Positions 502 to 62,935 of a stretch of DNA of 64,000 nt are shown here, one piece after another. This DNA comes from Pseudothermotoga hypogea DSM 11164 = NBRC 106472 (GTDB lineage: Bacteria > Thermotogota > Thermotogae > Thermotogales > DSM-5069). The stretch lies in NCBI RefSeq assembly GCF_000816145.1, contig NZ_CP007141.1, forward strand, positions 1,426,001 through 1,490,000. The letters are read 5' to 3'. The translations under genes and the position numbers were made by a program. Each line of letters starts with the position of its first letter. Position 1 is the first letter of the stretch. Below the pieces are notes generated by a model that saw only the letters and a program-made list of their open reading frames with translations, did no database searches and was not told the DNA's origin.

Positions 502-2298
502 CTATCCTGCGAACTGTATGGCTTGACCCGCCACGATGTACCAGGTCACGAACAGAGCGTTCACGAACGCACCAACGTAGATGTTTCCAGTCCTTCTGTA
601 GAAGAACGATGATATCGCTCCAACAACGGCGGTCAAGAAGACGAACTGGTACGCGACGATTCCAAGCAAAGGTTGCGTTGGGAAGTACAAAGTCTGTGTG
701 GCGAAAAGCTTGCCCACCTGGAGCAACACGAGGATGAGTATCCCAAGACAGTTAGCAAGTGCGGATGAAACCATCCACACAGCTGTGGAAGTTACTTCGC
801 TCTTGGATTCTTTCGCTTTCAGTTGACCGTTCAGAACCAGTGCGTTCACGAAGGCGAACAGTGCGAACGGTGGCAGGAATTTGATGAATATCCAAAATCT
901 CGCGAAGTCCATCGGTTTGAGAGCTATAACCCACCAGCGGAAGTCCACCTTGAACGCCCAATAGACAATTGACAAAACTATGTGCGTCGCGAACACCGTA
1001 CAAACGCTCAACGCGAATGCCTTCCAAAGTTGTCCAAGGTGGAACTTGGGTTTCTCAAGATTCGTGGCCAAACCGTAACTGACCAAGTTCCCACCGATCC
1101 TGCGATGGTACACGAAGTGCCAGACGATGAACAAACCGATCGCGATCAAGGCGTTGAACGTCGCCCATCGTGCGAAACCGATCGTGAGGCTCTGCGGCCA
1201 GAATGCATTTGGTGTTGGAGTCCTCCCACCCGGTTGCTGGAATCTGAAGAACGTGAACGCTGGGATCGCGGTCACGAGGAAGAAACCTACAAGCCACGTG
1301 ATGATGCTCAAGGCTTTGTTGTTCACTTGGAAACCGATCGGTCTGCTTCTCAAAGACGAGAAGTACGCCGTTTGGAGCAGACAGTAACCGTAGCTCAGCA
1401 GGAACATGATACCTCCTATCAAACCGAGCAGAGTTCCAAACTCCTTCCATGGCCAGATCTGGTTCTTTGGGTCTATGTACTTCGGTGGCTTGATGGAGTC
1501 CTGCAAGAACTCGATGGCGTTGCCGATCGCTTCGGTCGACAAGTGGTCCCCGGGATGAGTGCAGTTGGGAATGTAGAGTTTTCTTGCAGACTTGTTTTCA
1601 AAGGAACCATAAAGCTTGTTGGGAACGACGTCTTCGGTTGTTCCAAAAGCGATTTTCAATTTCTGTGTCTTGACGATGTCCGAAGCTTTTTCAACGCCCC
1701 ACATCAACCGACTGAACTCGTCGTATTTACTGAATATGACGGCGAAGTTGAACGGTGTTTCGGCTGTCACCTTCGGTGCTCCGTACGTTTCCGAAGAAGA
1801 GCCAACGAGTATGACTGTTCGAACCAGGTGCGGGTATCTTCCGGCCGCACTCAGCGTGGACCAACCACCCATCGAGTGTCCCTCAACGGCGATGTTGTCT
1901 TTGTCGACGAATGGCAGGCTGGCCAGATACAGCAGTCCATCGGCCGCACCGCGCGCAGGGTTGGCGAGTCCGCCCTTGATCTGCTCAGAATAACCATGCC
2001 CGGCCATGTCCATGGCGAAGACCACATAACCTCGCCTCGCGAACTCGATGTTGAAGCCACTCTGCGTTTCTCGAGAGTTGATGTATCCGTGCATGGTTAA
2101 AACTGCTGGTGCGGGTTTCTCGGGAGAGACACCTTTGGGGATGAAAAGCAAAGCGCTCAGAATTTTACCGTCGCTGCTGACGAAACGCACGTCTTTGACC
2201 TGAACCCTTCCAAAGTCTGTCTGGACCAGGTGAGCGATGAGAGAACCGACGAACACCAATGCGAGCGAGAGCAAGACCCAGAAAACACCCTTCTTCAC
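502..2298 (-). CDS. Alpha/beta hydrolase with multi-spanning membrane C-terminus
   Basis: The 598-residue protein has an N-terminal signal anchor (about residues 4-24), then an alpha/beta-hydrolase domain (about 35-270) with the nucleophile elbow GHSMGG (Ser142), a likely acid Asp223 and a His at 248 or 252. From about residue 287 to the end there are roughly eight or nine hydrophobic segments, so the enzyme domain is tethered to a polytopic membrane domain. The fold resembles dienelactone hydrolase and acyl-aminoacyl-peptidase families, but the substrate is not evident. The GTG start has an AAGGGGGTG ribosome site. A terminator hairpin lies directly in front of that site and a strong promoter lies about 105 bases upstream, which suggests attenuation control. 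Confidence 0.8.
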   Translation of the reverse strand: MKKGVFWVLLSLALVFVGSLIAHLVQTDFGRVQVKDVRFVSSDGKILSALLFIPKGVSPEKPAPAVLTMHGYINSRETQSGFNIEFARRGYVVFAMDMAGHGYSEQIKGGLANPARGAADGLLYLASLPFVDKDNIAVEGHSMGGWSTLSAAGRYPHLVRTVILVGSSSETYGAPKVTAETPFNFAVIFSKYDEFSRLMWGVEKASDIVKTQKLKIAFGTTEDVVPNKLYGSFENKSARKLYIPNCTHPGDHLSTEAIGNAIEFLQDSIKPPKYIDPKNQIWPWKEFGTLLGLIGGIMFLLSYGYCLLQTAYFSSLRSRPIGFQVNNKALSIITWLVGFFLVTAIPAFTFFRFQQPGGRTPTPNAFWPQSLTIGFARWATFNALIAIGLFIVWHFVYHRRIGGNLVSYGLATNLEKPKFHLGQLWKAFALSVCTVFATHIVLSIVYWAFKVDFRWWVIALKPMDFARFWIFIKFLPPFALFAFVNALVLNGQLKAKESKSEVTSTAVWMVSSALANCLGILILVLLQVGKLFATQTLYFPTQPLLGIVAYQFVFLTAVVGAISSFFYRRTGNIYVGAFVNALFVTWYIVAGQAIQFAG

Positions 2299-2400
2299 GC
2301 AGACACACCCCCTTCAAAAAAATTGGCCATACCCCTTGTCGAGGTATGGCCTTCTCCAATTCTCCTCCATACCACTGGCGAAGAAACATTATCTGAAACG
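2299..2400 (-). promoter_or_regulatory. Leader with terminator/antiterminator pair (candidate attenuator)
   Basis: Read on the minus strand, the leader contains GGTATGG (2373-2367), then GGCCATACC (2351-2343), a 9-base loop, GGTATGGCC (2333-2325), AA and seven T (2322-2316). The last two arms form a 9-bp terminator stem with a U tract. The first element is a second copy of the 3' arm core and can pair 7 bp with the 5' arm, excluding the terminator. The AAGGGGGTG ribosome site of the hydrolase gene starts 2 bases after the U tract. This arrangement is seen directly; the trigger is unknown and no known riboswitch class was recognised. The same hairpin could also stop transcription coming from the upstream ABC operon. 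Confidence 0.65.
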
Positions 2401-2430
2401 AGTATAGACGATCTACCTACCTTATGTCAA
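2401..2430 (-). promoter_or_regulatory. Sigma-A type promoter for the alpha/beta hydrolase
   Basis: On the minus strand TTGACA (2430-2425) and TATACT (2406-2401) are separated by 18 bases. The expected start site is near 2394, which gives a leader of about 96 bases that includes the attenuator-like hairpin. Confidence 0.75.
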
Positions 2431-3623: not shown

Positions 3624-4588
3624 CCCTCGTGCAGGAAGCAGGCAACTCTGTGTTTTTGTTCACCCTGCAACTGTGGTTTTTCCTTTTCGCATTTTTCGAG
3701 TCTGTAGGGACACCTCGTCGAGAAAACGCACCCAGATGGTGGATTCACCGGACTTGGCGGTTCTCCGTGTAGTTTCACCTGCGACAGCTTCCTTTGCCTC
3801 GGGTCCCAGCTTGGAACGGCCGACATGAGCGCCCTCGTGTAGGGATGCAGTGGATTTTCAAAAACCTCCACTGCTTCACCTTCTTCCACCACGTTGCCCA
3901 AGTACATCACGATCAGTCTGTCACTCATGTGATAAACCAGATCGAGGTTGTGGGATATGAAAAGATACGACATCCTGTATTCCTCTCTCAACTCTTGAAG
4001 CAGATTCACTATTTGACTCTGCACAGAAACGTCTAAGGCGGATGTCGGCTCATCGCATACTATCAACTTCGGTTTCAAGGCTATGGCTCTTGCTATGGCT
4101 ATCCTCTGTCTCTGCCCACCTGAGAACTCGTGTGGATAGCGTGACAAGTGCTCTCTGTGCAATCCAACTCTCACCAGAAGGTCCGTAACGTAGTCTTCCA
4201 TTTCTTTCTTTGATGTGAAGATTCTGTGCGCCTCGAGTGGTTCCTTCACCACGTCCACGATCGTCATCCTCGGATCGAGCGAGTTGAACGGATCTTGAAA
4301 GACCATTTGAACGGTTCTTCGAAAGAGTCTTTCGATGTCTTTGGGAGCCTTCTTCGTCACATCGAGACCTTGAAATTCGATCCTGCCAGAAGTGGGTTGG
4401 AGAATTCTCGCAACGATCCTTCCGAGCGTTGTTTTTCCACAGCCAGATTCTCCAACCACGCCCACCGTCTCGTTCTCTTTTATGTCCAGGTCCAACTCTT
4501 CGAGTGCCCTGACCCAACCTATGACTTGCAAGAAGACTCCTGCCCTGATGGGGAAATACTTTTTAACCTTGCGGAGTGAGATTATCAT
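3620..4588 (-). CDS. Oligopeptide ABC transporter ATP-binding protein (OppF type)
   Basis: The second of the two ATPases that power the operon's importer. From the chosen start the protein has 322 residues with Walker A GESGCGKT (about 46-53), Q-loop FQDPF, signature FSGGQ, Walker B LIVCDEP and the OppF/DppF C-terminal domain with PPSGCVF and CPYR cysteine motifs. The ATG at 4588 overlaps the stop of the oppD-like gene (ATGA) and begins MIISLRKVKKYF as family members do; a longer frame to 4690 runs antiparallel-like into oppD and was discarded. Confidence 0.92.
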   Translation of the reverse strand: MIISLRKVKKYFPIRAGVFLQVIGWVRALEELDLDIKENETVGVVGESGCGKTTLGRIVARILQPTSGRIEFQGLDVTKKAPKDIERLFRRTVQMVFQDPFNSLDPRMTIVDVVKEPLEAHRIFTSKKEMEDYVTDLLVRVGLHREHLSRYPHEFSGGQRQRIAIARAIALKPKLIVCDEPTSALDVSVQSQIVNLLQELREEYRMSYLFISHNLDLVYHMSDRLIVMYLGNVVEEGEAVEVFENPLHPYTRALMSAVPSWDPRQRKLSQVKLHGEPPSPVNPPSGCVFSTRCPYRLEKCEKEKPQLQGEQKHRVACFLHEG

Positions 4589-6641: not shown

Positions 6642-7610
6642 TCAACTGATCCTTATCCTGGGATCGAGTAAAGCCAAGGCAATGTCGGCAAGCAAGTTTC
6701 CAATCTGTGTTATCAGAGCTATGAACAGGAGAAAGGCCATCACCAGATACTGATCGTGGTTCAACAGTGCGCTGTAGAAGAACGGTCCTATAGTCGGGAG
6801 GTTCAGAACTATCGAGGCGATGATCGTGCCACTGAAAACGTTGGGAAGCTCCATACCAGCTATGCTCACCAAGGGGTTCATCGCGTTCTTTATCACGTGT
6901 CTCCTCACGGTTTTTTCGTCCAGACCCCGCGCCCTCAAAGCAGTGACGAAGGGTGAACCCAGCACGTCCAACATGTTTCCACGCATGATCCTCATCAAAC
7001 CAGCAAGCCCACTCACACCTATGACCACGATGGGCAACCACAGATGCTTGAGCAAATCGATGAACTTTGCCCAGCTCATCGGAGCGCCTATGAACTGTGG
7101 TGAAAACAGACCACCCACCGCAGTTCCTCCCAGTCTCAGTACGAGATACGTTAAGACCAGCGCGAGAAAGAATTCTGGGATTGAAAGACCAATGAATCCC
7201 AGAACCGTGAGTGTGTAATCGCCCGGCGTGTATGGATGCAGCGCGGAATAGATGCCCATGAGTGTTGCAAAGAGCCATTGAAAACCTATCGTCAGCACGG
7301 AGATCGCCACGGTCCAACCGAGTCTTTCCCATATCAGTTCAACCACTGGCCTCTGGTAGGAAAAGGAATAACCGAAATCTCCCTTGGTGACGATGTTCTT
7401 TATCCACATGAAATACCTTTGGTAGGCTGGTTTATCTAAGGCCAATTCCCTTCTCAGAGATTCGATCTGTTCGGGAGAGATGCGTGGATTTTCGAGATAC
7501 TGCGAAAGAAAATCACCCGGTTGAAGTTCCGTGACGACGAAGCAGATGACAGACACGAAGAACATCATCGGTATCATGATCAAAATCCTGCGCACGATGA
7601 AAGTCCACAT
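6642..7610 (-). CDS. Oligopeptide ABC transporter permease (OppB type)
   Basis: A 322-residue permease with an N-terminal helix (about 7-29), the ELQPGDF motif typical of OppB/DppB proteins, several further helices and an EAA loop near residue 215-245 (RARGLDEKTVRRHVIKNA). It forms the channel with the OppC-type protein. The ATG has AAAGGTGAT five bases upstream. It is separated from the binding-protein gene by a strong hairpin. Confidence 0.93.
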   Translation of the reverse strand: MWTFIVRRILIMIPMMFFVSVICFVVTELQPGDFLSQYLENPRISPEQIESLRRELALDKPAYQRYFMWIKNIVTKGDFGYSFSYQRPVVELIWERLGWTVAISVLTIGFQWLFATLMGIYSALHPYTPGDYTLTVLGFIGLSIPEFFLALVLTYLVLRLGGTAVGGLFSPQFIGAPMSWAKFIDLLKHLWLPIVVIGVSGLAGLMRIMRGNMLDVLGSPFVTALRARGLDEKTVRRHVIKNAMNPLVSIAGMELPNVFSGTIIASIVLNLPTIGPFFYSALLNHDQYLVMAFLLFIALITQIGNLLADIALALLDPRIRIS

Positions 7611-11927: not shown

Positions 11928-12549
11928 AAAGCTCATCACACTGACGAGCATCTTCGTCTTCGCCATAGTGGCTTCGAACGTGACGGCTTCGAAGTTGGTG
12001 AACCTCGGACGATTCGTTGTCCCGATAGCTGTACTCTGTTATCCTGTGACCTTCGCGATCACAGACATAGTGAGCGAAGTCTATGGAAAAAAGATCGCCC
12101 GAAGGATCGTCTGGGCGGGTTTCTTCGTCTCGATCCTTCTGGCACTGTACTCGAGAATCGTTGTGGTCTACCCACCGGCGGACTTCTTCGAAGGGAACGA
12201 AGCTTTCGTGAAGGTCTTTTCTTCCACACCCAGGATCGTCCTTGCGAGCATGGTTGCTTACGTAGCTTCACAGACTCACGACGTGTGGGCATTTCACGTT
12301 TGGAAGAAGCTCACCAAAGGCAGACACCTCTGGGTGAGAAACAACCTTTCCACGCTCGTTTCTCAGTTCATCGACACGTGCCTGTTCATCACGATAGCAT
12401 TTCTCAACGTTGTGCCTGGAGAAATCCTCGTGCGCATGATCTTCTCTCAGTACATCGTTAAATTCATCATTGCAATCATAGACACACCCTTTGTCTATCT
12501 TGGAGTCAAGCTGGTCAGTGGAAGATGGATCGTGGCCGAGACAAACTGA
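11908..12549 (+). CDS. Queuosine precursor transporter (YhhQ/VUT family)
   Basis: A 213-residue membrane protein with about six hydrophobic segments. It carries family signatures: [15 protein letters not shown] at the N-terminus, [20 protein letters not shown], and late [12 protein letters not shown]. Members of this family (YhhQ, QPTR) import preQ0, preQ1 or queuine. The ATG at 11908 lies inside queF after GGGGGA. With QueF alongside, imported preQ0 could be reduced directly. Confidence 0.9.
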
Positions 12550-59400: not shown

Positions 59401-59476
59401 TGGTGGAGCCGATGGGATTCGAACCCACGACTTCTACCTTGCGAAGGTAGCGCTCTCCCAGCTGAGCTACGGCCCC
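59401..59476 (-). tRNA. tRNA-Ala (anticodon CGC)
   Basis: A 76-base cloverleaf with encoded CCA. The acceptor GGGGCCG pairs with CGGCTCC (one G-U), the anticodon stem is CTACC/GGTAG with loop TTCGCAA, so the anticodon CGC reads GCG (Ala). The T arm has GTGGGTTCGAATCCCAT. Confidence 0.97.
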
Positions 59477-62579: not shown

Positions 62580-62935
62580 GGGGGCGAAAGGTTTCGACGG
62601 GTGTGAGATCCCCCAGGAAGCGAGCCGAGGTCTCCACCACCTCGTAAAAAAGGTGGAACCAAAAAGAAGTGCCAACTACGAAATGGCTCTCGCTGCCTAA
62701 TAGAGAATAGGCAGCCGTCCCCCGCGAGGTCTGACCGGTGCCCGCGGAAGGGGCGTGAGACAGCCGGTCGACCGCTGAAAGGTTCGCCCCGACTTTCAGC
62801 GGTTTAGCAGGGGCTGTGGCTTGCAAGGGCCTGCCTGTGGGCTCTTGAGGGCCGAGAACTAAACACAGGCTGCGCTCGGAGAAGCCTGGGGGTGCTCACA
62901 TTCGGACGGGGGTTCGATTCCCCCCGCCTCCACCA
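62580..62935 (+). ncRNA. ssrA: tmRNA
   Basis: A 356-base transfer-messenger RNA that frees stalled ribosomes. The 5' GGGGGCG pairs with CGCCTCC before CCA at the 3' end to form the tRNA-like acceptor; the 3' part has GGGGGTTCGATTCCCCC as T arm. The resume codon GCC at 62671 begins the tag ANYEMALAA, stopped by TAA at 62698. A TATAAT at 62565-62570 is the -10 box. GC-rich helices in the middle fit the usual pseudoknots. Confidence 0.97.

Follow-up and report, generated by a model that had tools for sequence, protein, structure and literature searches.

A leader very probably acting as a GlpP-dependent transcription antiterminator precedes a membrane hydrolase gene in Pseudothermotoga hypogea

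In Bacillus subtilis, the leaders of glpD, glpFK and glpT carry a GlpP site together with a terminator, and GlpP with bound glycerol-3-phosphate disrupts the terminators of the three leaders (PMC9604022). In this bacterium, the glpD promoter no longer responds to glycerol once glpP is deleted (PMC9604022). The 2013 reconstruction of sugar regulons in Thermotoga left the GlpP regulon unstudied (PMC3750489). In this work we analysed a window of 64,000 nucleotides from the Pseudothermotoga hypogea DSM 11164 genome, in which an attenuator-like leader lies ahead of a gene encoding a membrane-tethered alpha/beta hydrolase of 598 amino acids (502..2298, minus strand). The best explanation for the data, which we hold with high confidence, is that the leader is a GlpP-dependent transcription antiterminator that places the hydrolase, probably a glycerol-releasing enzyme, in the glycerol programme of the cell; in this explanation we infer the binding of GlpP and glycerol-3-phosphate, the read-through and the substrate.

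All the elements of the leader are on the minus strand. It starts with a sigma-70-type promoter (TTGACA-N18-TATACT, 2401..2430, 11/12 matches), followed by the 5′ arm of an antiterminator hairpin, P1 (GGTATGG, 2367..2373), and by a purine loop (AGGAGAATTGGAGAA, 2352..2366) with two GGAGAA repeats; no other part of the element is as conserved as this loop, which is the predicted GlpP recognition sequence. The next segment (GGCCATACC, 2343..2351) is a shared arm that pairs with the first GGTATGG as the 3′ arm of the antiterminator and also constitutes the 5′ arm of the terminator, as seen in the alignment and in the covariation of both pairings. The terminator is completed by its 3′ arm (GGTATGGCC, 2325..2333), which contains a second GGTATGG, and by a tract of seven U preceded by AA (2316..2322). 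A Shine-Dalgarno sequence (AAGGGGGTG, 2306..2314), identified like the U-tract by direct reading, and the GTG start codon of the hydrolase gene (starting at 2298) follow. The promoter, the two GGTATGG copies around the shared arm, and the 9-bp terminator stem with seven U had all been described in the first-pass annotation, and each was found in place.

The terminator stem extends to 11 bp when the inner UC/GG pairs are included, and the leader fold was more stable than those of dinucleotide shuffles (z = −3.1). Considered each in isolation, terminator and antiterminator hairpins showed stabilities of −20.2 and −8.7 kcal/mol at 37 °C, and of −9.0 and −1.6 kcal/mol at 70 °C, respectively. At the latter temperature, P1 was the predicted fold until the terminator 3′ arm is transcribed. 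Since the terminator is far more stable than P1, termination would be the default outcome, and a bound protein would be needed to favour P1. Comparison of the leaders with Rfam covariance models, at gathering and relaxed E-value thresholds, gave nothing credible. Within the window, Rfam matched only a tmRNA (62580-62935, plus strand) and a tRNA (59404-59476, minus strand).

Orthologues of the hydrolase (78-92% identity) were found in eight other genomes of the bacterial family, and the complete leader is kept at 9/9 orthologous loci, each of which shows a TTGACA box and a −10-like box. The hairpin loop is kept in these leaders as a purine sequence, GGAGAAU-n-GGAGAA, along with the competing terminator and its U-tract. 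The recurrence of promoter, first arm, loop, shared arm, terminator and U-tract at 8/8 other orthologues indicates that the leader is a real, conserved feature and not the result of chance. In an eight-sequence alignment, the terminator pairs were 100% kept, with four pairs changed on both sides, and one P1 pair was changed on both sides. Among 60 copies from the phylum, 7/8 P1 pairs were changed on both sides, with a covariation score of 0.331; shuffled controls scored 0.193 ± 0.014 (0/500) and slid controls 0.01-0.24. In the genome of the window, the copy before ugpB shows a stem of very different sequence (GGGTTG/CAACCC) around an unchanged loop. P1 is short in some lineages, and parts of f8 and g7 have a stem of no more than about 4 bp. 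Both competing pairings covary. The first-pass annotation had proposed an attenuator in which antiterminator and terminator compete, and had named conservation of both pairings in relatives as the check; this layout is borne out by the family loci.

A covariance model (R1) built from the element was searched over 103 Thermotogota genomes, and approximately 76 copies were judged genuine among the loci fetched. The first gene behind these 76 copies was glpA/glpD-like, encoding an FAD dehydrogenase, in 46 cases (45 classed as such plus one), the hydrolase gene in 11, ugpB-like in nine, glpK in six, and another gene in four; 61/76 copies therefore precede glpA/glpD-like, glpK or ugpB genes. Annotation of the targets was supported by matches of GlpK to TIGR01311 (E = 2e-228) and of the glycerophosphodiesterase (GDPD) to PF03009 (E = 6e-36). 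The best NCBIfam match of the GlpA-like protein was a type 2 glycerol-3-phosphate oxidase, and UgpB matched NF008211 (E = 7e-74), both under the cut-off of the respective model. Four copies are present in the genome of the window, before the hydrolase gene, glpK-glpP, glpA-glpB-(DUF1667), and ugpB, the last one scoring weaker. R1 matches before amino-acid-binding genes in locus L106 (genome G049) and in L111 were excluded for having no GAGA loop, and are probably plain terminators.

Several loci deserve separate mention. The two L106 leaders (6923-6983 and 4501-4561, minus strand) are near-identical terminator leaders without a GAGA loop, each before a gene for an amino-acid-binding protein, and may represent another attenuator; the genus of G049 is devoid of GlpP. 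In L151 (G057), copies at approximately 7099-7133 and 11966-12000 (minus strand) precede glpF-glpK and an operon that, judged by its sequence (dhaK-dhaL-dhaM), probably encodes a dihydroxyacetone kinase, so that the GlpP regulon of this genus seems to take in a second glycerol route. A further copy, in L081 (G045, 4501-4579, minus strand), lies before a gene for a PiT-like phosphate permease, as judged by sequence, which would tie phosphate uptake to the glycerol-3-phosphate response. In L172 and L175 (G058 and G060), some 450-800 bases with no called ORF separate the element from the hydrolase gene downstream; either the leader is unusually long or a small gene has escaped annotation. In the loci read, the glpA-glpB operon has a third gene, for a small protein that may replace the classical GlpC as a subunit of glycerol-3-phosphate dehydrogenase (L052 2638-3009, minus strand, with equivalents in L055, L056, L161, L171, and L173); in the genome of the window this protein is DUF1667 (PF07892).

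GlpP (PF04309, E = 1.5e-65) is encoded in the genome of the window directly behind glpK, in a glpK-glpP operon, and matches the solved GlpP-type proteins PDB 3KTS and 1VKF. A confident element was present in 66/79 GlpP-positive vs 1/24 GlpP-negative genomes among the 103 Thermotogota (Fisher p = 9e-13, kinship ignored), and the sole GlpP-negative genome carrying it is 71% complete. The covariance search gave no confident element in 13 GlpP-positive genomes, for which limits of the model are perhaps to blame. Within genus g5, both GlpP and the element occur in G071-G073, and neither occurs in G066-G070. The genomes of genus g13 (G090-G094) each contain at least two PF04309 matches, one of them directly before the element and glpA; these might be GlpP paralogues with a divided role, and some of the G091 matches are fragments.

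Outside this phylum, a GAGA-n-GAGA motif overlapping a terminator was observed in GlpP-bearing Bacillota, before glpF and glpD of Cytobacillus, before glpF of Acetoanaerobium, and in two Paenibacillus glp leaders. In a Streptomyces clavuligerus plasmid, motif and terminator lie behind glpP, and P1 is a perfect 7-bp stem. The glpK leader of Enterococcus was considered as a further copy and rejected as too degenerate. The glp targets, the co-occurrence with GlpP, the motif in Bacillota, and the covarying pairings indicate a GlpP antitermination leader and not a new riboswitch, with a switch that is almost certainly worked by the glycerol-3-phosphate-sensing GlpP through predicted binding to the leader. 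The statement in the first-pass annotation that the leader belongs to no known class has to be corrected accordingly: the element matches the GlpP protein-bound attenuators. On balance, we also lean towards the broader proposal that a single GlpP-read RNA family, absent from Rfam, is common to Thermotogota, Bacillota, and Actinomycetota, and that its Thermotogota regulon includes a membrane-anchored lipid hydrolase supplying glycerol or glycerophosphodiesters from outside. Members of such a family would have a short stem of variable sequence, capped by a tandem GAGA loop and taking the 5′ arm away from the terminator.

According to the mechanism that we propose, the nascent RNA would by default fold into the strong terminator, and transcription would end near position 2316. 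Upon accumulation of glycerol-3-phosphate, GlpP with this ligand would bind the tandem GGAGAA loop and stabilise the weaker P1 hairpin. Formation of P1 would occupy the 5′ arm of the terminator, so that RNA polymerase could read through into the hydrolase gene. The hydrolase would thus be induced along with glpK-glpP, glpABC, and ugpB, and its esterase domain, if facing outward, would probably free glycerol or deacylate glycerolipids outside the cytoplasmic membrane, feeding the glycerol pathway.

The hydrolase is predicted to contain one N-terminal transmembrane segment, a hydrolase domain (residues ~30-280), and about eight C-terminal transmembrane segments; residues S142 (GHSMGG), D193, and H248 are invariant and presumed catalytic. 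The presence of positive charges ahead of the first helix suggests that the hydrolase domain faces outward. Homologues were identified in 19/103 Thermotogota genomes, all 19 of them GlpP-positive, and in 13 cases the gene is within ~7 kb of glpP. The order element-hydrolase-glpK-glpP forms an operon in G002 and G009, with equal hydrolase-glpK-glpP spacing in G007, G008, and G010, and the order GDPD-hydrolase-[element]-glpABC-glpP is found in G046 and G047. Within the window's genus, the hydrolase gene was found in four genomes, in all of which it lies away from glpP and keeps the leader. For the homologues of G081 and G085, the motif and the linkage to glpP were both missing, and distant homologues from Syntrophaceae, Colwellia, and UBA7415 lacked a leader of this kind and had no glp genes recognisable nearby. 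The matches from a fold search with a model of the hydrolase were serine esterases and peptidases of a generic type. One among many was 7q4j, a thermophilic lipase with a monoacylglycerol intermediate, and no lipase was singled out.

These data suggest that the hydrolase splits lipids or other glycerol esters. The gene neighbourhood supports the view that it probably frees glycerol or glycerophosphodiesters from lipids, and the glycerol-gene regulon gives substance to the early suggestion that the substrate of the hydrolase may be read from the ligand sensed. There is a real, if lesser, chance that the gene has a GlpP leader and its product serves a purpose other than glycerol-ester breakdown, for instance membrane-lipid remodelling or the hydrolysis of other esters useful during growth on glycerol, as the generic fold and family matches and the distant homologues from Syntrophaceae and Colwellia would allow; against it stand the operon with glpK-glpP, the adjoining glycerophosphodiesterase gene, and the predicted outward orientation of the domain. 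It has to be noted that this alternative bears on the substrate alone and is compatible with a GlpP switch.

The compact conserved loop, the competing covarying stems, and a regulon compatible with one ligand would also fit a protein-free riboswitch whose purine-rich loop senses glycerol or glycerol-3-phosphate directly. We consider this very improbable, given that the element follows the presence of GlpP, that its conserved core comprises just ~35 nt in a single short hairpin, that the motif occurs before glpD in a genome of the Bacillaceae, where GlpP is known to be the mediator, and that no Rfam class was matched. CsrA-like GGA pairs were likewise dropped, in view of the glp regulon and GlpP co-occurrence. 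Least credible of all is an ordinary terminator of the upstream ABC-transporter/serine-hydrolase operon with a constitutive promoter inside it: the hairpin does lie on the same strand downstream of that operon, and the 2200-2700 region is otherwise devoid of terminator-like sites, but it sits 3′ of the promoter and immediately ahead of the ribosome site, hairpin and loop are kept in relatives whose upstream gene differs or runs on the opposite strand (G009), and elsewhere the element precedes glp operons. The upstream operon end, for which the first-pass annotation had asked a control, is thus excluded as the main role, and a secondary role of the hairpin in stopping upstream read-through is possible.

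With the assignment to GlpP, an attenuator that was anonymous leads to a regulon that can be tested. The covariation-backed RNA motif provides a definable GlpP target in these thermophiles and can serve directly as an Rfam-type model, and glycerolipids are put forward as the concrete predicted substrate of an uncharacterised membrane hydrolase. The class of mechanism is already known from Bacillus, and the Thermotogota RNA family and the hydrolase as a regulon member appear to be new; no description of the RNA consensus was found in the literature searched, and later work is possible.

When compared with known systems, the leader shares with the GlpP-controlled glpD, glpFK, and glpTQ leaders of B. 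subtilis a terminator between promoter and gene, a genome-encoded GlpP, and targets related to glycerol or glycerol-3-phosphate, the likeness in motif to Bacillus-type leaders being seen at glpD and glpF of Cytobacillus (Bacillaceae). On the other hand, the Thermotogota element has a clear, covarying antiterminator hairpin P1, and its targets also include ugpB and the membrane hydrolase gene. The RAT antiterminators of LicT, SacY, and GlcT (BglG family) similarly use a short protein-stabilised hairpin over the 5′ arm of a terminator (PMC7430163, and general knowledge), but these proteins belong to a different, PTS-regulated family with a different RNA recognition element, and no connection to them came up in this analysis. 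In HutP- and TRAP-type attenuators a protein likewise reads short repeated motifs, clusters of NAG repeats in the case of HutP (PMC7430163), whereas the element described here has only two GAGA repeats in a single hairpin loop, precedes glycerol genes, and co-occurs with GlpP.
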